Positions 986-19,741 of a DNA stretch of 20,906 bases are shown here, one piece after another. The notes under the pieces were generated by a model. The model was not told where the DNA came from. It made no database searches and worked only from the letters and a program-made list of their open reading frames with translations. A program made the position numbers and the translations under genes. The stretch is from IMG/VR virus record IMGVR_UViG_3300046006_003700, positions 1-20,906 of that record. One strand, given 5' to 3'. The number at the start of each line of letters is the position of its first letter. The stretch's first letter is position 1. Source of the stretch: a virus.

Positions 986-2842
986 ATGGGTGCATTATTA
1001 GAAAGCGGTCTAGTTGGTAACATTGGGTTGAAACACTTAAAAGTTATCAAAGAAGACACAATTAACAAATGGGATAAACTTGGCTTTTTGGAAGGTTTGA
1101 AAGGTCACATGAAAGAAAACGTAGCTCAGTTGTATGAAAACCAAGCTTCTCACTTAATCAATGAGGCTTCTTCAACTTCTGACTCTGGTTCTTTTGAAAC
1201 AGTTGTTTTCCCAATCGTGAGAAGAGTATTCTCTAAATTATTAGCTAACGACATCGTGTCAGTACAAGCAATGAACTTACCAATCGGTAAATTGTTCTAC
1301 TTCGTACCTAAAATTCAAGGTTATTCTGGTGGTACTTCTACTAACGGATACTTTGGAAACAGTGGTTCACACTACGCTCCTGTAGGTTCTCCAGGAAACT
1401 ACCCTGGTGACCCAAATGCTGGTTATAGTTCAGGTGCAGGTACATACAATCCTACATACAATAAGGATTTGTACGATTTGTTCTACGAAGGTAACGAACC
1501 AAACTTGGACCCTCCAGGATTGTTTGATTACTCTAAAGGTCAGTGGACAGCTGTTACAGCTTCAACTGTAACTTACGCTTGGAGTAACGCTGGTTACTTA
1601 GTACCTTCAGCTTACACATTGACTGACTACAGAAAAGTAATCATCGTTATGAGTGGATTCTCTAACGCTGGTGCTGGTCAATTGATTGGTCCAAATGGTA
1701 ATACAATGGATACTGAAGAATTCTTATCAGGTTTGAACATCTTTGGTGTGACTGATAACACAACTACTTCAGGTAACACACAAGCTCCTTACTTATTCAG
1801 AGTAGTAACTCAAAGATATGGTAAAGGTATCGTTCAATACGGTAACACTGTAACAACTCAATTCCCTGCAGGTCCTGCTGGATACAACGCTAACTCAGGT
1901 GGTTCTTACTACAACGTATGTGATGCTAACGGTTTCATTTTCTTAGAAATTGATTTACAACAACCAGTTTGTATCTCTTGTGGTCAAACAACTCCTGATG
2001 GTTATACAGGTTCAACATTCTCATCTGATACATCTAGTAACGACGCTTTCTTAGCTGTTTACAGATTGTACAAAGAGTTGGAATTTGAAGACCAAATTGG
2101 TGAAGTTTCTTTTGACCTTGAATCAGTTACTGTTTCAGTTACAGAAAGAAAATTAAGAGCTCAATGGTCTCCTGAATTAGCTCAAGACGTTGCGGCGTTC
2201 CACAACATTGATGCTGAGGCTGAATTAACAGCTTTATTGTCAGAGCAAGTTGCGGCTGAAATCGACAGAGAAATCTTACGTGATTTGAGAAAAGGTGCAG
2301 CATGGAACTTGAGATGGGATTACAACGGTTGGAAGAGATTAGCTTCTACTGGAACTACTCCATACACTCAAAAAGATTGGAACCAAACTTTGATTACAGC
2401 TATCAACCAATTGTCAGCTCAAATCCACAAATCAACATTGAGAGGTGGAGCTAACTGGATTGTTGTATCTTCTGAAGTTTCGGCTATCTTTGATGATTTG
2501 GAATACTTCCACGTATCAAACGCAGCTCCTGACCAAGACCAATACAACATGGGTATCGAAAGAATCGGTACATTGTCAGGAAGATACCAAGTGTATCGTG
2601 ACCCTTACTTCCCAGCTAACCAAGTGTTGATTGGACACAAAGGTACTAGCTTGTTGGATACTGGTTACATCTACGCTCCATATGTTCCTTTACAGTTGAC
2701 TCCAACTATGTATAACCCATTCAACTTCACACCTATCAAGGGTATCATGACAAGATACGCTAAGAAAATGGTTAACAACCGTTTCTATGGTAGAGTAACA
2801 GTTGATGGTGTAAGAACATTCAACTTACAAGAATTGAGATAA
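986..2842 (+). CDS. Major capsid protein, gp23-like
   Basis: This is the shell-forming HK97-fold capsid subunit of a T4-like phage. It has 618 residues against about 520 in T4 gp23. The N-terminal 60 residues resemble the removable propeptide and end in Leu-Ile-Asn-Glu, followed by Ala61. That fits the T4 prohead protease rule (Ile/Leu-x-Glu, then cut), so the mature protein probably starts at Ala61. Residues 76-112 (IVRRVFSKLLANDIVSVQAMNLPIGKLF, in pieces) match the gp23 core. Residues 372-430 (EVSFDLESVTV, then LAQDVAAFHNIDAEAEL) match the most conserved gp23 block. Between them, roughly 113-360 is a long Gly/Ser/Tyr/Asn-rich insertion, probably a surface-exposed domain. Codons ending in C (AAC, TAC, TTC) are far more frequent than in neighbouring genes, as expected for the most highly expressed gene. 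The leader is A-rich with no Shine-Dalgarno. Confidence 0.95.
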   Translation: MGALLESGLVGNIGLKHLKVIKEDTINKWDKLGFLEGLKGHMKENVAQLYENQASHLINEASSTSDSGSFETVVFPIVRRVFSKLLANDIVSVQAMNLPIGKLFYFVPKIQGYSGGTSTNGYFGNSGSHYAPVGSPGNYPGDPNAGYSSGAGTYNPTYNKDLYDLFYEGNEPNLDPPGLFDYSKGQWTAVTASTVTYAWSNAGYLVPSAYTLTDYRKVIIVMSGFSNAGAGQLIGPNGNTMDTEEFLSGLNIFGVTDNTTTSGNTQAPYLFRVVTQRYGKGIVQYGNTVTTQFPAGPAGYNANSGGSYYNVCDANGFIFLEIDLQQPVCISCGQTTPDGYTGSTFSSDTSSNDAFLAVYRLYKELEFEDQIGEVSFDLESVTVSVTERKLRAQWSPELAQDVAAFHNIDAEAELTALLSEQVAAEIDREILRDLRKGAAWNLRWDYNGWKRLASTGTTPYTQKDWNQTLITAINQLSAQIHKSTLRGGANWIVVSSEVSAIFDDLEYFHVSNAAPDQDQYNMGIERIGTLSGRYQVYRDPYFPANQVLIGHKGTSLLDTGYIYAPYVPLQLTPTMYNPFNFTPIKGIMTRYAKKMVNNRFYGRVTVDGVRTFNLQELR

Positions 2843-2859
2843 TCTCAAAAATTCATAAT

Positions 2860-2892
2860 AAAAAAAAGGGGACTTATTGTCCCCTTTTTTTT
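2860..2892 (+). terminator. Perfect hairpin terminator after the capsid gene
   Basis: An uninterrupted inverted repeat begins 17 bases after the capsid stop. The arms are A8-GGGGAC (2860-2873) and GTCCCC-T8 (2879-2892), with the loop TTATT. The six G/C-rich pairs followed by eight T residues form a textbook intrinsic terminator. The A-tract on the other arm would make it work on the - strand too, though no - strand gene reads into it from the right nearby. Confidence 0.92.
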
Positions 2893-2899
2893 ATTATAT

Positions 2900-2910
2900 G
2901 ATATTTATTA
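2900..2910 (+). promoter_or_regulatory. Candidate promoter-like motif GATATTTATTA
   Basis: The motif lies between the capsid terminator and the ATG at 2921. Near-identical sense-strand copies occur upstream of three other genes (near 4317, 7321 and 11365). A promoter here would restart transcription after the terminator. No matching -35 element is obvious, and the base composition makes chance matches likely. Confidence 0.3.
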
Positions 2911-2920
2911 TTAAACTAAC

Positions 2921-4057
2921 ATGAGTTGTAAAAAATCCATATTAAAAAATACATCAAATACGTTTACTTCTGTAATTAATTACATAAGGTGTTCCGATAA
3001 TTTAACAATAAATAATTATCAAATTAATCCTAATGAAACTGTAAATATATGGTATGTTAATGGTTCATATTACACAGCTTCCAATACTATTGAAACTATT
3101 GAAACCATATCTTGGCCACCAGTAACGGTAACTCCAAGTACGTCATCAGTAACTCCAACACCAACGCCAACACAGAGTGTGACACCAACAAATACAAATA
3201 CGTTAACACCAACACCGAGTATTACACCAACAAATACAAATACGTTAACACCAACACCAAGTGTAACACCAACAAATACAAATACGTCAACACCAACAAA
3301 TACTCCTACAGCAACTGCGGGTGAAACACCAACACCGAGTGTAACACAAACACCAACACCGAGTGTAACACAAACAAATACTCCTACAGCAACTGCGGGT
3401 GAAACACCAACACCAACAAATACAACTACGTTAACACCAACAAATACTCTTACATCAACTGCGGGTGAAACACCAACACCAACTCCAACACCTACACCAA
3501 CGGGAACTCCTGCTGAAACTCCAACACCTACAAATACTCCAACAGCAACTGCGAGTGAGACACCAACACCTACAAATACAAATACATTAACACCAACGCC
3601 AACTAACACACCATTACCCCCTTCGTTAATGACCATTAATATGGTTGAAAGTGGTGGAGGTATTATTGTTTCAGGTAGTGGTAGAGTTAACTTATCTTCA
3701 CTAACATTTAGTGGATACACTAACGATGGAAAATCTGAAGCAAATCCTTTAAGTAATATAGTCCTTGGTAACGCATTATTTAACGATATTGATGTCTATA
3801 CGGGTATAACTAGCGGAAATACGTTCTATGGTAGTGGTAGTACATCATCACCAAGTTCATACGATTCAGGTTTAGACGTACTTGGAATTGGATATAACTT
3901 TACAGGTATTGTTGTACCATCTGGTTATATATCAAATGATTTAATATCGGCATATAACGTTTATAATTCTGCAACTTTTGCATCTAAAGGATATACACCA
4001 GGTACTTACACGTGGACTTGGGCTTCAGGTAGTTTAGTTCTTCAAATAGGACCGTAA
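2921..4057 (+). CDS. Thr/Pro-repeat structural protein with C-terminal beta domain
   Basis: This 378-residue protein has three parts. Residues 1-68 form a small domain with Cys3, Cys24 and the pattern [17 protein letters not shown]. Residues 71-234 are a low-complexity linker of Thr-Pro/Thr-Asn units ([26 protein letters not shown]). Residues 236-378 form a Gly/Ser-rich beta-type domain ending in [10 protein letters not shown], then a [13 protein letters not shown]-like stretch and LQIGP. That last pattern recalls modules I have seen in secreted bacterial proteins and in marine or freshwater phage proteins; this is recollection, not a search result. A rigid Thr/Pro stalk carrying a terminal beta domain suits a head decoration or fibre exposed on the virion, and the position next to the capsid gene supports that. 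No signal peptide or membrane helix is evident. No exact function can be assigned. Confidence 0.8.
3131..3622 (+). repeat. Degenerate tandem repeat encoding Thr/Pro/Asn stalk
   Basis: Imperfect in-frame repeats are built on units such as ACACCAACA and AATACAAATACG. Longer units of about 45 bases recur near 3182, 3227 and 3272, and a second type (ACTGCGGGTGAAACACC) recurs near 3313, 3394 and 3460. All copies stay in frame within the structural gene. Repeats of this type expand and contract by slippage or recombination, so stalk length may vary between related phages. Confidence 0.9.
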
Positions 4058-4958: not shown

Positions 4959-5357
4959 CGTATGTAATATTTTTCTTAATGAATGTTTGATGTTGGAAGT
5001 AATTTCTTCTTCCATTTTTAATCTTTGTTTTTCCAAGACTTCATTAAAATAATTAATAATTTCCTCTTTTGATTTTTCCTGTACTAAAACAGTATATGAA
5101 TATTTGTGATTTATCACATTTATACTACTACCTTCAATTGTTATAAAAATAGAATTTGAAGGGTTATGAATATATCTCTTATTTGATAGCGGTGTCATTA
5201 ACAATTGACTATCAGGTTTATCAATAAGTTTTTTACATATAGATAAACAATCTAATTCATATTTTGTTCTTGACCCTCTTTCGTAATCCATTTTTCGAAC
5301 TGAATCAATGTACATTCGTTGAATCCATCTTCTAAATGCGTGTTTATATTCTTTCAT
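4950..5357 (-). CDS. Unknown helical/beta protein, 135 aa
   Basis: I do not recognise this family. I place the start at the ATG at 5357 (MKEYKHAFRRWIQR). A longer form could use a TTG at 5372 but adds only five residues. The N-terminal 50 residues are basic and helical. The middle (about 60-90, SIFITIEGSSINVINHKYSYTVLV in part) looks like a beta hairpin or small sheet. The C-terminal 45 residues are a charged helix (EKSKEEIINYFNEVLEKQRLKMEEE) ending in SLRKILHTLD. It has two cysteines. It overlaps the convergent gene by nine bases and lies 36 bases beyond the stop of the upstream gene at 5394, so it is probably the last gene of the long - strand run. Confidence 0.65.
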   Translation of the reverse strand: MKEYKHAFRRWIQRMYIDSVRKMDYERGSRTKYELDCLSICKKLIDKPDSQLLMTPLSNKRYIHNPSNSIFITIEGSSINVINHKYSYTVLVQEKSKEEIINYFNEVLEKQRLKMEEEITSNIKHSLRKILHTLD

Positions 5358-5393
5358 AAGTTTAGGATTCAAAGATAATAATATTATTTGAAA

Positions 5394-5870
5394 TTAACAA
5401 TAGGAACCAGAACAATGTTTTTTTCCATCTAAACCTGGCATTTTACCCTTACAAACTTGAACCGCATATCCATTGGCATATGCTGATGGATAAACATCAA
5501 ATTTTGATTTTGCAGCAGACTTACCACGAGCACAAAGTTTTGTACCTGTTTTTTTCTTTCCTTCCATCATTTGGGTTTCATCCCCCATTGAGTCATCGGT
5601 AATGTGGTCTGTATTGATTTGATTCATCATAAAATCAAATACTTGGTCGATGTTTTCTTTTGCTACAGCTACGTGGTCTTGAGCCCAATCGTGACCTTGT
5701 TCTAATATACTAACAACCGCATCTTCACCCAATTCAAGTAAGATTGCGGTTTGTCTGTGTAATTGTTCTAAATTACTAAAGAACATATATCTTTCATTTT
5801 CTTGTTCAGATAAAATTTTCTTAACCAAATTGGCGATATCTGATTCTTGGAGTCTAACTATTTTTTTCAT
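5394..5870 (-). CDS. Small Cys/Lys-rich protein with putative N-terminal capsid-targeting peptide
   Basis: This protein has 158 residues. The N-terminus (MKKIVRLQESDIANLVKK, then ILSE at 19-22) is amphipathic and ends in Leu-x-Glu before Gln23. That is the form of T4 capsid-targeting peptides, which the prohead protease removes from internal head proteins. Residues 30-105 are helical and acidic. The C-terminal 50 residues are basic, with KLCARGKSAAKSKFDVYPSA, VCKGK and a Cys-Ser-Gly-Ser-Tyr-Cys end (four cysteines in all). I recognise this C-terminal pattern from phage proteins of unknown function. The start overlaps the stop of the upstream structural gene as ATGA, so the two are translationally coupled. 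An internal virion protein is my best inference; it is not established. Confidence 0.75.
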   Translation of the reverse strand: MKKIVRLQESDIANLVKKILSEQENERYMFFSNLEQLHRQTAILLELGEDAVVSILEQGHDWAQDHVAVAKENIDQVFDFMMNQINTDHITDDSMGDETQMMEGKKKTGTKLCARGKSAAKSKFDVYPSAYANGYAVQVCKGKMPGLDGKKHCSGSYC

Positions 5871-7306
5871 TTTTCTCCGCTAGTATTCACACGGATGTCA
5901 ACATAATATTGATTTGGTATTTTATCTCTTGTATCAAAGATAAAATAATATTCATTTGGGGTTCTGTTAATTGGTGTCCAATCTTGAACTTGTACTTCAG
6001 TATTACCTTCCCTCACATAAACACGATAGAACGCTTCAATATCATTTAAGACTACTTGACTTGTATATGCTTGTTTGATGGTCACCATGACCTTCCTAAT
6101 GTCTGTATTTAGTATCTTTTCGTTTTGTTTGATACCACTAAAATCAAATCCGTATAGTATTGGGTCTTTTGATTGATAACCAATTTGATATACTGATGAT
6201 TGGCTTAATAATACGAACTCATTTTCTACATTGCTTAATGTTACACCATTTTTTACCAAATCAGACCATTGGTCAGTAAATTGACATGGTGTAGAATATC
6301 CGGTAATTGGTGGAACTGTAACTTCATAAACACCTTTTGTTTTCAAACAAGTGGTAAGTGCTGACATACCTGATACAACAAGACCATCAGGACCAATAAT
6401 TGACACTGTTGGGTCGTTATCCAAATTCATAAAGTCGCCACTTGAATATGCGTATAGAAATAATTTATTTGTTCTACCTGCTGGGAATTGGTTTCTATCG
6501 TCTTTAATTATATCATCATAAGTTGTTTGAAGATATGGTTGATAAAACGTTTGAGTATGTCTTGTAAAGAATCCAACAGAATATGTTTCTGTAAGTCCTG
6601 ATATATTTTCAATTTCAGGTACGTAAGCTATACCCCAACCTGTAACACCAGTAATTGTTCCTTGTAAAACACCATTAATTTCATTTGACATATCAAAAGA
6701 AATGTCTTCATTACCAAATTCAAAATGTTGTCTGTCAACGATAGTAAGTGCTGAGTAGTTAAGACCTGAAAAATTACCAACAATAGTGTTTGTATTGTTA
6801 TATAACCCAGGATATGACCAATTGTTTAATGTTGTGCCTTGAAACCAATTTGATGGACGAGTACTAAAAGCTTGGTTATTTGTGTATTCAGCAACCGCTG
6901 GTTGAAATACGTAATCAAAACCGACACCTTCATCCCAATCTTGAGCAATACCTGTTGAGCCTGAATATTCGGGAATTCTAAATAAGATTAAATCAAATGA
7001 TGTAGCTCTTCTTGAACCATCAGATGTTGTACCATTTAATAGTTCAATATCAAACGAGGAAGTGTTTGTCATGTTAAGAACATGTGTCATTCCTGAAGTA
7101 CATCCTGTTGAAATAATACCTGAGGCAATTTGTTCTTCTAAATAAGTTAAATCCAAATCAAATATAAATCTTGTAAAACCTCTTGGGGCGTAAGTTGCTA
7201 AATCACCACCAAAATATAATTGGGTTACAGGGTTTCTACCAGTGTTGGTATAACTGTTGTATTCAAGTGTGTTGTTCTTGCTAAAATATGACTTTAATAT
7301 AGACAT
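5867..7306 (-). CDS. Beta-rich virion structural protein (DNRLRE-like pattern)
   Basis: This 479-residue protein is rich in Ser, Thr, Asn, Tyr and Gly. The N-terminal part runs NPVTQLYFGG, then RGFTRFIFDLDL (residues 25-54). A middle stretch has SFDLILFRIPEYSG, WDEGVGFDYVF and, further on, FFTRHTQTFYQPYLQTTYDD. These pieces recall the jelly-roll DNRLRE-type surface modules (a strand pattern of 'R..FDL', then 'F.S...P.L...Y.D'), though I cannot verify this by profile search. The C-terminal 200 residues look like further immunoglobulin-like strands. There are no enzyme motifs. It lies directly downstream of the OB-fold baseplate gene, 21 bases apart. A baseplate-associated or tail-fibre attachment protein is the likeliest role. 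The leader has no Shine-Dalgarno but does have a GATATTTAT motif. Confidence 0.75.
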   Translation of the reverse strand: MSILKSYFSKNNTLEYNSYTNTGRNPVTQLYFGGDLATYAPRGFTRFIFDLDLTYLEEQIASGIISTGCTSGMTHVLNMTNTSSFDIELLNGTTSDGSRRATSFDLILFRIPEYSGSTGIAQDWDEGVGFDYVFQPAVAEYTNNQAFSTRPSNWFQGTTLNNWSYPGLYNNTNTIVGNFSGLNYSALTIVDRQHFEFGNEDISFDMSNEINGVLQGTITGVTGWGIAYVPEIENISGLTETYSVGFFTRHTQTFYQPYLQTTYDDIIKDDRNQFPAGRTNKLFLYAYSSGDFMNLDNDPTVSIIGPDGLVVSGMSALTTCLKTKGVYEVTVPPITGYSTPCQFTDQWSDLVKNGVTLSNVENEFVLLSQSSVYQIGYQSKDPILYGFDFSGIKQNEKILNTDIRKVMVTIKQAYTSQVVLNDIEAFYRVYVREGNTEVQVQDWTPINRTPNEYYFIFDTRDKIPNQYYVDIRVNTSGEK

Positions 7307-11387: not shown

Positions 11388-12128
11388 TTATTCAATTATG
11401 CCATTAAGAACTACATAATACAGTTTTTTGAATCTTTTCATTGCGGTCCTAATTTCTTTGGTAGATAAGTTAGTCATTTCTCTAATTGATAGTAAAATAA
11501 TGTTCTTGTTAAACTTATTATTACCACTTTCCAAAAAAATAGTTTTATAATTTTCAAACAATTCTAATAAAGCAATTCCTAATTTTGTTTCATTATCAGT
11601 TAATTGTTCTTTTTCCAAGTATCTTTTTAATTCATCTAAAAATTCTTGTATTACATCATCGGCTTCTGTTTTTTCAAATTCCATATAATAAACCATGTCA
11701 GGTCTATTTTCTAAATTTGAAGATATGTCTTCATAGGACACTTTTCTGTTGGTATCTTTTTGGTCTTTAATAATTTGACCCATTAAATAATTCTTACAAA
11801 TTGTACCAAAATAAGAATAGGCTTTTTTGTTTTTTGATGGTTTGAATTTATCAACTTTGGTCATCAAAAACGAATGTGTGTCAGTATGAATATCTGTAAA
11901 ATTCATATCTTTACGATAAAGTTTATATCTTCTAATGATTGAAGATATCATTTTGTCCAAAGGACCTCGTAAAAATTCGTTATAAATTTGGTTTTTTTCC
12001 TCAAAAGTTTCTGCCGTGAGATACATTCTCACGGCATTCTCTTCTACCACATCAAAATAGTTTGTGGTGGTTGCTTTCCTACCTCTCTTTTTCAAGATGG
12101 TAGTAGTCGTTGTTTCGGATGAAAACAT
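11388..12128 (-). CDS. RNA polymerase sigma factor for late transcription, gp55-like
   Basis: This protein has 246 residues; T4 gp55 has 185. It is probably the phage sigma subunit that directs host RNA polymerase to late promoters. Residues 53-121 fit sigma-70 region 2: GPLDKMISSIIRRYKLYRKD, then KVDKFKPSKNKKAYSYFGTI and CKNYLMGQI. The 'FdP.k...a.SYF.t..kNyl' pattern is the sigma region 2.1-2.3 core. The C-terminal part has a possible helix-turn-helix-like stretch (LLSIREMTNLSTKEIRTAMKRFK), which could act as region 4. The N-terminal 23 residues are Thr-rich and basic with KKRGRKATTT, which might contact DNA. The classic gp55 C-terminal clamp-binding peptide is not obvious. Its start overlaps the upstream glycosyltransferase stop by one base (TAATG). 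Assignment comes from motif reading; a profile search was not run. Confidence 0.75.
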   Translation of the reverse strand: MFSSETTTTTILKKRGRKATTTNYFDVVEENAVRMYLTAETFEEKNQIYNEFLRGPLDKMISSIIRRYKLYRKDMNFTDIHTDTHSFLMTKVDKFKPSKNKKAYSYFGTICKNYLMGQIIKDQKDTNRKVSYEDISSNLENRPDMVYYMEFEKTEADDVIQEFLDELKRYLEKEQLTDNETKLGIALLELFENYKTIFLESGNNKFNKNIILLSIREMTNLSTKEIRTAMKRFKKLYYVVLNGIIE

Positions 12129-12934
12129 TAAGCACTTGGGGCTTCATATTTTATGTTTCTATCCTCAACGAAGAAATATTCTTTTTTTGCTGTAGAAATC
12201 CAAAACTTAACTTCATTTTCACTCATAACGTTTTCACCATTTTTGTAATTCCAAAAAATAGAACCTTCTCTCATACTGGTGTGTTTGTATCCAAGTTTTG
12301 GAATTGTCATAACACGAGCAGTGAAGTAAGTTAATCTTAATAAAAATTCGTAAACAAATGTCAACTTCATTGATGATTTCATCGGACCAATTTCATCCAA
12401 TTTAGATTTTTTAACAACCATACCGGCAGTTTGGAAATTTTGGTAATCCAACAAAGTATCGTTATTCAAATAACCCATTTCTTGAGTAAAGTTAGCTGCA
12501 AATGTTGCTTCATTTGTAAATCCTGCAAATACATCTTTAGAATCAACATCAACCACAATCGGTAAGAATGCATCCACATCAGAATATATTTCTGAATATT
12601 TCAATACATTGTCAAACCAAATATTTGAATATTCATCGTCAAATTCAAAGAATGATACCCATTCACTTGAAACATTTTCAATACCCAAATTAATTTGTGA
12701 TTGATAATTACCAACACCTTCAAATGGTATTAATTTAACATTCAAAGATTCGAAGTCGTAGTTTTTTAATTTTTCAACTAATTGTTCTTCTGTTGTGTGA
12801 ACAATCAAAAGTTCGTTGAATTGTACTTTTTGTATTTTAAGTGATTTGATACACTTATCAAAATATTCATCAAAATCTTTTACAACAGCAGATTTCAAAG
12901 GTAAAATAACGGATAGATTTAATTTTTTTTCCAT
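12128..12934 (-). CDS. Glycosyltransferase, GT-A fold (family 2-like)
   Basis: This 268-residue enzyme probably transfers a sugar from a nucleotide donor. LSVILPLKSA (7-16) is the usual family 2 first strand. GNYQSQINLGIENVSSEW (75-92) matches the 'G...A.N.gi....geyv' segment, followed by FFEFDDE (95-101) in place of the metal-binding DxD. A later TAGMVVKKSKLDEIG matches the acceptor-side 'g...vrrs.f..vG' block. No membrane helix is visible, so the enzyme is probably cytoplasmic. It is flanked by another glycosyltransferase (6-base gap upstream) and the sigma gene (one-base overlap downstream). Donor and acceptor cannot be read from the sequence. Candidates for the donor include the GDP-sugar made by the cassette at 15629-19741. 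Confidence 0.8.
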   Translation of the reverse strand: MEKKLNLSVILPLKSAVVKDFDEYFDKCIKSLKIQKVQFNELLIVHTTEEQLVEKLKNYDFESLNVKLIPFEGVGNYQSQINLGIENVSSEWVSFFEFDDEYSNIWFDNVLKYSEIYSDVDAFLPIVVDVDSKDVFAGFTNEATFAANFTQEMGYLNNDTLLDYQNFQTAGMVVKKSKLDEIGPMKSSMKLTFVYEFLLRLTYFTARVMTIPKLGYKHTSMREGSIFWNYKNGENVMSENEVKFWISTAKKEYFFVEDRNIKYEAPSA

Positions 12935-12940
12935 AATATA

Positions 12941-13984
12941 TTATTCAGCAATTTGAGCTTCAAAAGCTTCTTTACGTTTATTAATAAAGGTATTGATTTT
13001 TTCAACTACCTCTGTGTTAAATTTTTCAGTATCTGTAAACTTACTAGCTGTTTCTGCAGCTTCAGTATAAAGTTCAGGTTTCAAATTGTCTTCTAACCAT
13101 GTCTGACATATGTCAGCAATTACGTCTGGTAATTGAATAACATTATCAATCCAAACTCCGTTTGTTTCGGTCATCCATGAAGGTGTTAAATTTGGTATTT
13201 TTCCAACAACAGGAACTCCTGATTTCATACACTCTAATGGGAATGTTCCAAATGATGATGTTGGGTCCACCCAAACACCCAAGAAACATTCTTTGATTGA
13301 GTTAGCAAATTCTTCTTGGGACATACCTCTCAAATCTCTAAATGTAAAGAATCTGTACTGTGGGTATTTTACATAAAATTCTTTGATTATATTAAGACCT
13401 TCTCTTTGTTCTCTTGAGAAAATACCAATAATTGGTTTTGGTGGGAATTGTTGTTTTTCAAACACGTCAGCAATTACAGGTTCAATCACATCAACAGAAA
13501 TATTTTTCATTGTTCTTTGGATGTGTTCTTTTTGCAACTCAGATGTCGTAATACACTTCATAAAACCAAATTGTTGCCAAGTAGCACCAGGTGTTAAAGT
13601 TTCAAACATGTGGTCATATGCCTGACAAAGAACAATTTTACCACAAGGTAAGTTTTTAACTTGTTCCATGATAAAACCAAAAATTTCAGGAATAATCAAT
13701 GTGTCTTCAGGAGAAATGGCCAAATTAGTACCTTCCAAACATTGGTGTGGAATTTCATCGTATGAACCACTTAACCAAGATGTTACTGGTGTGAATTCTT
13801 TTTTCTCATAAAGCATTATTACGTTATGACCATCATTTTTTAAGGTCAATGCCATATCGTAAAGATATTTGATAGAGGCTTTCGCATTACCTCTTGTATC
13901 TTGTACAAAGAAGTAAATTCTGTTTAATTTAGATTCAATGTTTGCAATTGAACCTTTGATTTTTTCAATCATTTCTTGTTCCAT
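12941..13984 (-). CDS. Glycosyltransferase, GT-B fold (family 4-like)
   Basis: This protein has 347 residues. The N-terminal half has the Rossmann-type start RIYFFVQDTRGNAKASIKYL (22-41). The C-terminal half has IIGIFSREQREGLNII (185-200), then FLGVWVDPTSSFGTFPLECM (234-253) and SGVPVVGKIP. The 'S.GtfPLEcmksGvPVv' segment, with Glu251, is the conserved donor-binding block of retaining GT-B enzymes. There is no membrane helix. It sits 6 bases upstream of the family 2-like transferase, so the pair probably act in one glycan pathway. Donor and acceptor are unknown. The acceptor could be a virion protein or a host polysaccharide. Confidence 0.85.
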   Translation of the reverse strand: MEQEMIEKIKGSIANIESKLNRIYFFVQDTRGNAKASIKYLYDMALTLKNDGHNVIMLYEKKEFTPVTSWLSGSYDEIPHQCLEGTNLAISPEDTLIIPEIFGFIMEQVKNLPCGKIVLCQAYDHMFETLTPGATWQQFGFMKCITTSELQKEHIQRTMKNISVDVIEPVIADVFEKQQFPPKPIIGIFSREQREGLNIIKEFYVKYPQYRFFTFRDLRGMSQEEFANSIKECFLGVWVDPTSSFGTFPLECMKSGVPVVGKIPNLTPSWMTETNGVWIDNVIQLPDVIADICQTWLEDNLKPELYTEAAETASKFTDTEKFNTEVVEKINTFINKRKEAFEAQIAE

Positions 13985-15628: not shown

Positions 15629-16699
15629 TTAAAGAGTAATGTATATCCCTTTAGGCGATGTTCCTCGTTTGAAGAACTTAACATTACCGTTGAAATCATT
15701 AATTAATTCCTTTGGTAACTTTGATTCTCTTATGAATTTTTCAGTTTCAATAATATGAACTGTATAACCATCCCTTAGTAAGTCATAAACAAGATTTAAC
15801 TTGGATGATTCTACGTTGGACTCTGTATTCTCTTTATACCCCAAACCATCAATGATAAATGGTTCAGACTTATCTTCATTTAATTTGGTAAAATGTTTTC
15901 TTAAAAACTGATTGTGTTGAATATTAAAATCCTCAACAACATAAGGTAAAATAAACTCTAATTTATTACGATTACAAAACTCACCAAATACACGATTGTC
16001 TGATGGAATATATGGTCCCCCAAAACCAAAACCGTAATCAAAGTTCTTTTCACCAATTACACTATGTTTTGATAGTGTATCCATAACCAATTTGATTTCA
16101 TCGGTTAATCCATAATTGGTTAATAACTCACCCATCATGTTGGCAAAGTTGATTTTATATGCGGTGTAAGAATTTAGTGCGAGTTTACACAACTCGGCAC
16201 TTTTACTAGTCATAGAAACAATGGTTGTTGGTTTTTTCTGAAAATCAGATATTAAAGTTCCCACAATGTTTACTGTATATGGGTCAATACTACCCACAAT
16301 AATTTTTTCTTGTGATTGTAATGAATCTATGTAGTTATCACTCGATAAAGTAAGGGGTAAATAACATACTCGTAAATTCATGGGGGTTAAGATATCACTT
16401 ATCTCTCTTGTATCACCAGGGTTCATTGTGGAACACAATACGACAATCTTATCAACTAGCGGTACTTCTTCCTCAAACGCCACCCCAAAGTCTTCTACAA
16501 CGTCCATAACGTTCTTAATGTCGTATATGTTTGATGGAAGTATTTCCGTATTTACACAACAAAAAATAACATCAGAGTTTTTAATAACTTCATAGTTATC
16601 ACCATCAACATCTGAAACATAAATTTCATGTTGTTGTTCAGCAAAACAACGTAATAAATTTAGACCTAAATTACCAAGTCCTATAATACCAATTTTCAT
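15629..16699 (-). CDS. UDP-glucose/GDP-mannose dehydrogenase homologue lacking the catalytic cysteine
   Basis: This protein has 356 residues, shorter than the usual 390-430. The N-terminal Rossmann motif is KIGIIGLGNLG (2-12), followed by DVIFCCVNTE and VVLCSTMNPGDT, the usual NAD-domain strands. The central helix ELCKLALNSYTAYKINFANM keeps the conserved Lys and Asn of the family. The catalytic loop, normally GFGGxCFPKD, reads GFGGPYIPSD here: Tyr230 replaces the nucleophilic Cys, and Ser233 replaces the conserved Lys. The third domain (FIIDGLGYKENTESNVESS) is present. Classical four-electron oxidation to a uronic acid needs that cysteine, so the protein probably does something else or is regulatory. 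About 40 residues are missing between strand 2 and 'sDVIFCCV'. Its ATG overlaps the gmd stop (ATGA), so it belongs to the sugar cassette. Confidence 0.85.
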   Translation of the reverse strand: MKIGIIGLGNLGLNLLRCFAEQQHEIYVSDVDGDNYEVIKNSDVIFCCVNTEILPSNIYDIKNVMDVVEDFGVAFEEEVPLVDKIVVLCSTMNPGDTREISDILTPMNLRVCYLPLTLSSDNYIDSLQSQEKIIVGSIDPYTVNIVGTLISDFQKKPTTIVSMTSKSAELCKLALNSYTAYKINFANMMGELLTNYGLTDEIKLVMDTLSKHSVIGEKNFDYGFGFGGPYIPSDNRVFGEFCNRNKLEFILPYVVEDFNIQHNQFLRKHFTKLNEDKSEPFIIDGLGYKENTESNVESSKLNLVYDLLRDGYTVHIIETEKFIRESKLPKELINDFNGNVKFFKRGTSPKGIYITL

Positions 16700-17664
16700 T
16701 TATAAAAATCTAACCAATATTCAATCATCTCATCAAGCATGGTTTCAAATGTATATGTTGGTTCCCATCCAGTATGTTTTTTAAGTTTTGTTGGGTCACC
16801 TTTCAAATCATTTAATTCTTCAGGTCTTAAAAATTTTTCATCCATCACAACATAATCTTGATAAGAAAGTTCTAATTTACCAAATACGTATTCACACAAT
16901 TCCTTAACTGAATGTGATATACCAGTCGCACAAACGTAATCATCAGGGTTTTCAAGTTGTAAAATCATCCACATTGCTTCAACATAATCTTTTGCATGTC
17001 CCCAATCACGAGTAGCGTCTAAATTACCCAATGCTAATTTTTTTGATAATCCTAATTTAATTTTAACAGCTTCTTTTACAACTTTGTTAGTTACAAAATT
17101 AGTTCCTCGTCTAGGTGATTCATGATTAAAAAGAATACCATTTGAGATAAACATGTTATATGAATTTCTGTAATTTCTACAAATGTTATATGAATATACT
17201 TTTGCACAACCATACGGTGAAACTGGGTACATTGCGGTTGTTTCTCTTTGGAAACCATCAAAATCAATTGAGTTTCCGAACATTTCAGATGAAGACGCTT
17301 GATATATTTTAGCATCAGGTTTAATTAATCTAACCGCTTCTAACATGTTTAAAGTTCCAATACCAGTTACTTGTGCGGTATAGATTGGTTGGTCAAATGA
17401 AATTCTAACATGTGATTGTGCTGCCAAATTATAAATTTCATCTGGTTGTGTTTTTTGAATAACACTAATCAATGATGATAAATCTGTTAAATCGGCATAA
17501 AACAATTTTATTTTATCGTAAACTTTATCTAATCTAGCTGTTTGATTTTCTGCAACAGAATTACGTTTTAATGTACCAAATACTTCATAACCTTTTTCTA
17601 ATAAAAACTCCGCAAGATACGAACCATCTTGTCCGTTAATTCCTGTAATTAATGCTTTTTTCAT
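16696..17664 (-). CDS. gmd: GDP-mannose 4,6-dehydratase
   Basis: This 322-residue short-chain dehydrogenase/reductase family enzyme converts GDP-D-mannose to GDP-4-keto-6-deoxy-D-mannose, the common precursor of fucose, colitose, rhamnose and perosamine. ALITGINGQDGSYLAEFLL (4-22) is the NADP-binding start specific to this family. NLAAQSHV (79-86) follows, then SSSEMFG (124-130), whose Ser/Glu are catalytic, and Tyr151-x3-Lys155 in SPYGCAKVY. FNHESPRRGTNFVTNKV and GNLDATRDWGHAKDYVEAMW are diagnostic. RPEELNDLKGDPTKLKKHTGW closes the protein. All catalytic residues are present. Both ends overlap neighbours (stop/start ATGA), making it translationally coupled to the ColD-like gene upstream and the dehydrogenase-like gene downstream. 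The host must supply GDP-mannose, since no manA/manB/manC is in view. Confidence 0.95.
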   Translation of the reverse strand: MKKALITGINGQDGSYLAEFLLEKGYEVFGTLKRNSVAENQTARLDKVYDKIKLFYADLTDLSSLISVIQKTQPDEIYNLAAQSHVRISFDQPIYTAQVTGIGTLNMLEAVRLIKPDAKIYQASSSEMFGNSIDFDGFQRETTAMYPVSPYGCAKVYSYNICRNYRNSYNMFISNGILFNHESPRRGTNFVTNKVVKEAVKIKLGLSKKLALGNLDATRDWGHAKDYVEAMWMILQLENPDDYVCATGISHSVKELCEYVFGKLELSYQDYVVMDEKFLRPEELNDLKGDPTKLKKHTGWEPTYTFETMLDEMIEYWLDFYK

Positions 17665-18815
17665 ACGTATTGATTAACAATGTTAATAACTTTATCAATT
17701 TCTTCAACAGTCATTTGGTGATTGTTTGGAAGGTACAATCCATACTCATGAACTTTTTTAGATATTGGTAAATCTTGTTTACCATATCTTTCATACCAAA
17801 ATGGGTGTTCATTAATTGAACCACATATTAACGGTCTACATTCAACATTATTTTCAGTTAATTTTTCGACCAATTCTTTAATATTTTTAGTGATGACTGG
17901 ATATGAAAAATTTGAAATAAAGCTATCTTTTGGTGGGTTAATTTTCCACTCATTATTTTTAATACCTTCATGGTACTTTTGATAATTTAAGTTTCTATTT
18001 TTGACAATTAAATCTAATTTTTTTAGTTGTTCTAATCCAATAAAAGCTTGTAAGTCGGTTGCTCTTAAATTAAAACCTGGGTAATAAAAAGTATATAACG
18101 AACGGAAATCACCAATATTATACTTTTCACGTAATTCAATTTGTTTTGACTTTGGTAAATCCCTGTCCCATCCATGAGAACGAATGGACAATAAAATGTG
18201 ATACAATTCTTCATCATCAGTTGAAATCATACCACCTTCAATAGTTGACATATGGTGACCAAAGTAAAATGAGAATGTAGATAAATCACCAAATGTCCCA
18301 AGTTTTTTACCTTCATACTCAGAACCAATAGATTCGCAAGTATCTTCAATCAATCTGATGTTATATTCTTTACATAATTTAACAATTTCATTCATGTGAT
18401 TAGGAAATCCTAACACGTGAACCAAAATAATACTTGATGGGTCATGTTCTTTAATAATTTGTTTCAAGTGTTCAATGTTTAATCCTAAATTGTCTTCATC
18501 GCACTCACACATTATTGGTTCCATTCCAAATTGTACCGCAGGTGTCACAGTTGTTACCCAAGATACCGCTGGAACTACAATTTTATTATTTCTTAATTTA
18601 CCTGATAATAACAACGCATATAAAGCGGCTAAATTTGCTGACGAACCAGAATTAACAAATACTGAGTATTTTTTACCTAACCAATCGGACCATTCTTTTT
18701 CAAATTTAACATTTAATTCTCCTTTGGTTAATCTTGGGTTTGTTTCTAACCAAGATATTAATTTTTTAATGTCATCACTATCAATAGTGTCTTTTACTAA
18801 ATCAATCTTATTCAT
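17661..18815 (-). CDS. colD: GDP-4-keto-6-deoxy-D-mannose 3-dehydratase, ColD-like
   Basis: This 384-residue protein has the DegT/DnrJ/EryC1/StrS PLP-enzyme fold. NSGSSANLAALYALLL (55-70) binds the PLP phosphate, and LIEDTCESIGSEY (155-167) holds Asp158, which pairs with the PLP ring. The usual aminotransferase site 'SFH..K..t.GEGG' reads SFYFGHHMSTIEGG (182-195), so His187 stands where the PLP-binding lysine should be. A histidine there is the hallmark of ColD, the enzyme that removes the 3-hydroxyl from GDP-4-keto-6-deoxymannose using PLP and glutamate. ColD of Escherichia coli is of similar length (about 388). The Fe-S cysteines of the other His-type dehydrase (E1/RfbH) are not evident. 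Neighbouring gmd and a fucose-synthase-like gene support this. Specificity is inferred. Confidence 0.85.
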   Translation of the reverse strand: MNKIDLVKDTIDSDDIKKLISWLETNPRLTKGELNVKFEKEWSDWLGKKYSVFVNSGSSANLAALYALLLSGKLRNNKIVVPAVSWVTTVTPAVQFGMEPIMCECDEDNLGLNIEHLKQIIKEHDPSSIILVHVLGFPNHMNEIVKLCKEYNIRLIEDTCESIGSEYEGKKLGTFGDLSTFSFYFGHHMSTIEGGMISTDDEELYHILLSIRSHGWDRDLPKSKQIELREKYNIGDFRSLYTFYYPGFNLRATDLQAFIGLEQLKKLDLIVKNRNLNYQKYHEGIKNNEWKINPPKDSFISNFSYPVITKNIKELVEKLTENNVECRPLICGSINEHPFWYERYGKQDLPISKKVHEYGLYLPNNHQMTVEEIDKVINIVNQYV

Positions 18816-19741
18816 TATTTTCTTATATTAGGGTAGTTTTCTAAAAACCAATTTATTGTTTCTTTAATCCCATCGGACAATTTTGTAAACTTAAATTCTG
18901 TTGGTGCATTTGATATTGCAGGTTTTTTATGTTGACCTTTTGGTTTGTCATAATCAAAAATTAAATCATCGTCACCTATATTAAAATTATTACATATTTC
19001 TTTAGCAATTTCTAAGATAGTAATTTCATTTGGGTTAATAGCCATAAATGGTTCTTCATCTTTCCAATTATCTAACGACCAAAGAATTAATTTTGCTAAA
19101 TCATCTGAATAAATGATTTGTCGTAATGGACTTCCATCACCCCAAATAACCATTTTTTCTTTATTTTTATTTGCTAAATATGCTCTGTGAATCATTGCCG
19201 GTATCATGTGTCCTTCTTCTAAATGAAAATTATCATGTCTACCATAAACATTAGTTGGGATTACCGAAACCCAATTACTTTTAAGAACGTTTTTAACTAT
19301 GTTTGTTTCATATCCCGCTAATCGTTTTGCATATGCGTACCCATAATTTGAATGGTGGGGAGCACCATTATTGATTTGATTCGCTGTTAATGGATATGTG
19401 ATATTTTCATCGGGAAAAATACAGGTAGATAATATATTGACAAAATTTGGTATTTCATTTTTAAATGATGCCTCAATTACATTGTTATTTAGTAAAAAAT
19501 TATCAATAAAAAACCCTTTATTGTTTTTCATATTTGCTTGGACACCACCAACTTTAGCGGCACAATTAATAATGGTGTCAACACCATTATGTTTAACTTG
19601 ATAATTTATATAATCTAACGTTTGTTTTCTATCGGTTAATTCCGCATCTTTTCTATTGTGATAAACATGATTATCCCCTAAGATTTTTTTTAGTGCCGAC
19701 CCAACAAGACCATCTGAACCGGTAATTAAGTATTTTTTCAT
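18815..19741 (-). CDS. GDP-L-colitose/GDP-L-fucose synthase-like epimerase-reductase
   Basis: This 308-residue short-chain dehydrogenase/reductase resembles WcaG/Fcl and ColC. YLITGSDGLVGSALKKIL (4-21) binds NADP(H). The catalytic set is complete: Ser105 and Cys107 in LSTCIFP, Tyr135-x3-Lys139 in GYAYAKRLAG, and His178 in EEGHMIPA; Cys and His are the epimerisation residues. NVYGRHDNFHLEEGHMIPAM is the family signature, followed by WGDGSPLRQIIYSDDLA. Fcl epimerises C3 and C5 and reduces C4 to make GDP-L-fucose; ColC does C5 and C4 after ColD has removed O3. With a ColD-like gene immediately downstream (one-base TAATG overlap), the ColC role is likelier, but sequence reading cannot separate the two. 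This is the first gene of the coupled cassette. Confidence 0.9.
   Translation of the reverse strand: MKKYLITGSDGLVGSALKKILGDNHVYHNRKDAELTDRKQTLDYINYQVKHNGVDTIINCAAKVGGVQANMKNNKGFFIDNFLLNNNVIEASFKNEIPNFVNILSTCIFPDENITYPLTANQINNGAPHHSNYGYAYAKRLAGYETNIVKNVLKSNWVSVIPTNVYGRHDNFHLEEGHMIPAMIHRAYLANKNKEKMVIWGDGSPLRQIIYSDDLAKLILWSLDNWKDEEPFMAINPNEITILEIAKEICNNFNIGDDDLIFDYDKPKGQHKKPAISNAPTEFKFTKLSDGIKETINWFLENYPNIRK

Follow-up and report, generated by a model that had tools for sequence, protein, structure and literature searches.

The question raised by this locus is what a phage with a T4-like capsid encodes immediately behind its major capsid gene, and whether the product is displayed on the virion. 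The window analyzed here, the whole stretch of 20,906 nucleotides (IMG/VR record IMGVR_UViG_3300046006_003700), encodes a gp23-type major capsid protein of 618 aa (986..2842, plus strand; PF07068, E 6e-73), which is followed after 78 nt by a gene on the same strand with an ATG start and an ORF of 378 aa (2921-4057), here denoted the fibre gene. The description given in the initial annotation, a Thr/Pro stalk between two small domains, encoded right behind the capsid gene, is accurate: the protein consists of a 67-aa N-terminal domain (N-domain; residues 1-67, 2921..3121), a constant five-strand beta domain that is the proposed virion anchor, a Thr/Pro/Asn/Ser-rich repetitive stalk of 168 aa (residues 68-235, 3122..3625), and a 143-aa all-beta C-terminal module (C-domain, or tip; residues 236-378 and the stop codon, 3626..4057).

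The stalk contains 71 Thr (42%), about 37 Pro (22%), 14 Asn (8%), 12 Ser (7%) and 5 Glu residues, with Lys, Arg and Asp missing altogether. Overlapping arrays with periods of 24, 42, 66, 78 and 144 were detected by TRF at 3163-3597, within the stalk; all these periods are multiples of 3, as befits a genuine repeat array that keeps the reading frame. Stop codons are present in its two other forward frames and in two of the three reverse frames; on the minus strand, the same region contains a 216-aa ORF with Gly/Val repeats (3070-3720), probably a by-product of the Thr/Pro repeat and not a gene. Searches with the complete fibre protein returned no Pfam families at E up to 1 and no NCBIfam families at E up to 10, and the matches of several Thr/Pro proteins to phrog_15511 were set aside, given that it was the low-complexity stalk that matched. 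A near-identical sibling contig (L001) encodes the same fibre gene with one base different.

Relatives of this gene were identified by searching IMG/VR with one N-domain alignment, resulting in 62 contigs, all 62 of which were returned; duplicate loci (L001, L006-L009, L012, L013, L017 and L049) and two loci without the N-domain (L002 and L003) were left out of this count. In all 61 contigs that show both genes, the N-domain gene starts 78-89 nt behind gp23. The capsid proteins of these contigs are 84.4-99.0% identical to that of the window, with the first 100 and the last ~250 residues nearly invariant and the variation concentrated at about 100-350. The fibre proteins, in contrast, comprise 33 distinct complete sequences that run from 66 to about 1,126 aa and differ in stalk and tip (ORF lengths are too high for GTG starts, where 1,150 is really 1,126, and in a group that has an ATG further upstream, where 107 is really 66). 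L035 and L036 encode nothing but the bare N-domain, so that the stalk is dispensable there; the proteins of L062, L065 and L067 (106-108 aa) lack a stalk; those of L005, L010, L011 and L020-L024 include the N-domain and stalk only, and others carry different tips (L032-L034 and L060-L075). Proteins with identical first 68 residues can yet be 126, 130 or 140 aa long, and 12 of the 62 contigs encompass tandem N-domain genes, one encoding a bare 66-aa copy and the other a copy with a stalk. Thus, a hypervariable anchor-stalk-tip fibre locus, which the initial annotation did not describe, is located behind an almost fixed capsid gene. That annotation did predict a stalk of variable length and suggested comparing repeat number among related genomes; the prediction holds, and the difference in stalk length is apparent even between near-identical relatives.

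The single exception to the location behind gp23 is L052, in which the N-domain gene adjoins a head-tail adaptor gene (phrog_211, E 1e-9); the protein encoded there (5001-7118 of that locus) combines the N-domain and a stalk with DUF285 (PF03382) repeats as the tip. Another contig, L029, is 97.7% identical to the window over 452-2908 and then switches to L027, with that contig's fibre locus and the genes behind it, the homology break coinciding exactly with the end of a TATTTAT motif, 13 nt before the start codon. L029 is a natural recombinant and shows that capsid and fibre are exchangeable independently. Three near relatives by capsid, Mel-JY01, LR756508 and LR756511, have no Thr/Pro-stalk gene in the slot behind gp23.

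The short intergenic region contains an apparent transcription boundary. Behind the capsid gene, there is an intrinsic terminator hairpin (2855..2897, plus strand; GC stem 2868-2884; fold -25.3 kcal/mol), and every distinct intergenic sequence inspected in the relatives folds into a similar hairpin, with a GC stem and a T run behind it. The promoter-like TATTTAT motif comes next, before the fibre gene (2902..2908, plus strand; TATTTATT in the window), and is present in 61/61 homologous intergenic regions. The 8-mer TATTTATA, whose reverse complement is the T4 late box TATAAATA, is a candidate late-promoter element: in eleven stretches of the clade with 151 genes, the 100 nt before the genes contain 24 sense-strand copies, against about 2 expected from the 8-mer density, in a Poisson calculation that treats related loci as independent. 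This 8-mer stands 12-31 nt before many starts in the window, L006, L110-L113, L116 and other loci. At 11391-12128, the window also weakly matches a late sigma factor (phrog_234, E 0.008). We read this arrangement as a putative separate late promoter behind the capsid terminator and before the fibre gene. Transcription of the fibre gene would then be late and independent of that of the capsid gene and, with such separate transcription, the fibre would be made in smaller amounts than the capsid protein.

The N-domain is likely to be the virion anchor. Its AF2 model, built from 22 sequences, is a confident five-stranded structure (pLDDT 93.4, pTM 0.76), for which comparison with the PDB produced no significant match (Foldseek E no lower than 0.69; VIA-align Z no higher than 5.5, with an rmsd of 3.6 over 65 residues). 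A fit to an uncultured-phage protein in BFVD (TMq 0.70, rmsd 1.2) comes with a weak E of 0.046 and is a lead only. Neither the N-domain nor the C-domain has an acceptable match in a collection of 50,697 phage records, where hits at E 0.8 and higher represent chance. No signal peptide is visible by eye at the N-terminus of the fibre protein, which is instead occupied by the conserved N-domain. Given the constancy of the capsid core, the N-domain could dock there. However, members of the N-domain family are also encoded in a fibre/transferase cluster away from gp23 and, together with L052, these indicate that the domain need not mean "head".

The C-domain yields a good model as well (pLDDT 87.4, 24 sequences), with no relative identified by PDB sequence comparison and no clear fold match; for neither domain do we take these negative comparisons to mean a new fold. 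Its homologs were found in 18 bacterial loci, from Acetobacteraceae, Acidobacteria, Planctomycetes, Verrucomicrobia and others, the majority showing a PEP-CTERM-like end, and in ten loci of the viral collection, the window's sibling included. Of the bacterial homologs, seven were tested, and each matched PEP-CTERM family models with E no higher than 0.01; three of them scored above the curated cut-off of TIGR02595 (sorting domain), and L083 is at the PF07589 cut-off. In phages, the module is placed between Thr/Pro segments, and one such protein (L097) additionally contains ConA-like lectin domains. This sequence similarity identifies the C-domain as a module belonging to exported PEP-CTERM proteins and present in other phage fibres as well, a relationship not recognized in the initial annotation. 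L095 and L121 encode different Thr/Pro proteins, only one of them with the C-domain, in what by eye is a single slot between two conserved genes.

The initial annotation further considered the stalk a natural glycan acceptor, pointing to several glycosyltransferases and a sugar-nucleotide pathway in the window. The pathway is indeed there, as a cluster of four genes (15629..19741, minus strand) encoding a nucleotide-sugar (NDP-sugar) dehydrogenase (15632-16699), a GDP-mannose 4,6-dehydratase-like protein (16699-17664; TIGR01472, 400 bits, just below the 415-bit cut-off), a DegT-type sugar aminotransferase (17664-18815) and a GDP-fucose-synthase-like protein (18818-19741). As for the glycosyltransferases, one is clear, a GT2-family enzyme and possible partner (12128..12934, minus strand; PF00535, E 1e-6; PRK10073, E 2e-6), and the rest are only possible: a conserved 347-aa protein (12941..13984, minus strand) resembles a glycosyltransferase by eye but has no Pfam, PHROG or NCBIfam match. 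The window's sugar genes are a weak argument for glycosylation of the stalk: homologs of the 347-aa protein occur in 17/20 records (52-100% identity), and matches to the GDP-mannose dehydratase in 9/20, neither of which tracks the stalk, so that the idea of this dehydratase tracking the stalk was dropped.

Gene order in related phages makes a better case: there, Thr/Pro-stalk genes stand directly before a gene of the PF11397 (GlcNAc-transferase) family, which is represented in 13/20 records of this and related groups. No PF11397 gene is present in the window's record, a 20.9-kb fragment; in G001, this gene lies about 25 kb downstream of gp23, a spacing at which an equivalent gene would fall outside the window. 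A scan with the PF11397 protein found 367 loci, of which 80 were fetched and 51 were distinct with a complete upstream neighbor. A Thr/Pro-stalk gene is located immediately upstream of PF11397 in 29 of these 51 loci, at the second upstream place in 20/45 and at the third in 16/40, compared to 46/535 among other neighbors and 3/349 at the eight downstream places, where the loci are related and the counts not independent, and the Fisher calculation treats them as independent. In the other 22 of the 51, the gene immediately upstream has no such stalk. By a cruder distance count, covering 48 loci that extend 7.9 kb or more to each side, a Thr/Pro gene was found upstream in 36 and downstream in 15. 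The 29 immediate upstream neighbors belong to nine N-terminal sequence groups, the largest of which (12) is the N-domain family, homologous to the window's N-domain with an hhalign E of 7e-23. Further transferases are encoded downstream of PF11397, namely, GT25 in L100 and L115, and GT10 together with GT61 in L110. In two distant phages, XacN1 and RAS14, a PF11397 homolog is encoded but there is no Thr/Pro-stalk gene within about 8 kb. The general O-glycosylation motif of Bacteroidota, D-[ST]-[AILVMT], occurs nowhere in the window protein, the stalk of which has no Asp, making a host pathway of this type an unlikely modifier. By this indirect, genomic evidence, to which the reported glycoproteins of XacN1 add, glycosylation of the stalk is likely and, because the stalks of related phages adjoin sugar-attaching enzymes, the protein is probably a sugar-coated surface fibre.

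The PF11397 family presumably includes the Skp1 hydroxyproline GlcNAc-transferase of protists; sequence searches identified no solved relative of the phage enzyme. Four of the 20 records (G001, G003, G006 and G014; L202-L204) encode 2OG-Fe(II) oxygenases (PF13640), possible prolyl hydroxylases and, by analogy to protist Skp1, the acceptor could even be hydroxyproline where the phage has such an oxygenase. G001 carries Thr/Pro stalks at four places, on a total of at least five proteins: two are encoded close to the contig start (L120), one is the long fibre ahead of PF11397 (L110), one is encoded upstream of genes that by eye resemble portal/terminase genes (L121), and one is encoded behind gp23 (L006). 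The literature searches listed no paper that deals with Thr/Pro stalks in phage virions or names PF11397 in phages.

The explanation that we favor, with a probability of about 0.5, is that the fibre gene encodes a modular virion display fibre, most likely on the head, with a stalk decorated by phage transferases. For this clade, we found neither virion proteomics nor a structure, and the placement on the head, also suggested in the initial annotation, draws on gene position, 61/61 behind gp23. Under this scenario, the N-domain would dock on the conserved capsid surface, and the Thr/Pro stalk would form an extended spacer decorated in the host cytoplasm, before assembly, by phage-encoded transferases, the sugars keeping it stiff and soluble and potentially masking it. 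The tip would bind polysaccharide or cell-surface material, such that a change of stalk or tip alters what the particle sticks to and leaves the capsid untouched.

The same fibre might, however, carry its stalk as a bare disordered spacer, extended and protease-resistant, with the transferases acting on DNA, LPS or other proteins. Thr/Pro linkers are extended even without sugar and would need none for this role; the sugar genes, among which the GDP-mannose dehydratase fails to track the stalk, may instead serve DNA or host-surface modification; and PF11397 homologs exist in XacN1 and RAS14 without a nearby stalk. What such a spacer does not predict is that Thr/Pro stalks of nine N-terminal groups abut PF11397, and we consider this version doubtful albeit credible. 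Another alternative is an appendage of the neck, tail or baseplate that happens to be encoded behind gp23. The N-domain gene beside the head-tail adaptor in L052, the N-domain family members in the fibre/transferase cluster, and the annotation "tail fiber" of an 89-aa protein in the same slot of Flavobacterium phage immuto all point in that direction, but the uniform position of the subfamily directly behind gp23, in every contig showing both genes, and the large repeat protein that shares the immuto slot make this alternative unlikely.

The gene could also encode a protein that is not part of the virion, such as one that is secreted or placed on the cell surface and alters the infected cell, with a C-domain derived from exported bacterial proteins. 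The PEP-CTERM homologs are indeed exported, but this origin appears improbable considering that the gene is within the head gene cluster, that the protein starts with the N-domain and shows no signal peptide by eye and no sorting-motif family match (E up to 10), and that the C-domain is also found in phage fibre-like proteins. Finally, tandem repeats that shift in length among near-identical phages are what neutral expansion, a simple-sequence array growing and shrinking without function, would produce; nevertheless, the frame stays open and Thr/Pro-rich across the distinct proteins, whose lengths span 66 to about 1,126 aa, other domains stand behind the array, and several unrelated fibre-like genes of the same phages share the composition, so that we give this account hardly any credence.

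If the decorated display fibre is real, a group of uncultured large T4-like phages combines a nearly fixed capsid with a surface-display locus that evolves fast, and has a genome-encoded route for glycosylating virion proteins, which the recurrence of the stalk-transferase gene pair makes directly testable. A broader and more tentative possibility, which we would not yet call probable, is a mucin-like coat, in which the Thr/Pro stalks of several virion proteins, the fibre behind gp23 included, would be glycosylated in the host cytoplasm by phage enzymes headed by PF11397, with stalks and tips swapped as cassettes.

Several known systems share parts of this design. The exported PEP-CTERM proteins are homologous to the C-domain over nearly its full length (26-42% identity); the bacterial copies end in a sorting motif, whereas the phage copy sits on a stalk and shows no such end (NCBIfam, E up to 10). 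The cultured Xanthomonas phage XacN1 reportedly has two glycosyltransferases, ORF328 and ORF334, and at least two glycoproteins by proteomic analysis (PMC5852040). ORF334 is the PF11397-type homolog (46.6% identity) and, unlike in the window's phage group, where the PF11397 member is encoded beside Thr/Pro-stalk genes (outside the window itself), it has no such gene nearby. In the cultured T4-like Flavobacterium phage immuto, genes 206 and 207 behind gp23 (L206, 6672-8595) fill the slot of the fibre gene with the 89-aa protein followed by a 546-aa repeat protein. These have neither the N-domain nor a Thr/Pro stalk; the repeats look Ig-like by eye, with no family match above the cut-off, and the pair is perhaps another display-type gene in the same slot.

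A close parallel is T4 Hoc, which is described as a constant capsid-binding domain with variable outer domains, displayed on the capsid and nonessential in the laboratory (PMC10385173). By sequence, the window protein is not a Hoc family member: no Hoc or Ig-like family matched it (Pfam, E up to 1), and the absence of the Hoc capsid-binding fold among the weak Foldseek and VIA-align matches of the N-domain excludes nothing. It would nonetheless work like Hoc, coupling a constant docking-type domain to an outer part that varies among relatives, with the differences that the constant domain is N-terminal, the spacer is a Thr/Pro stalk of strongly variable length in place of a string of Ig domains, and the gene is located directly behind gp23.
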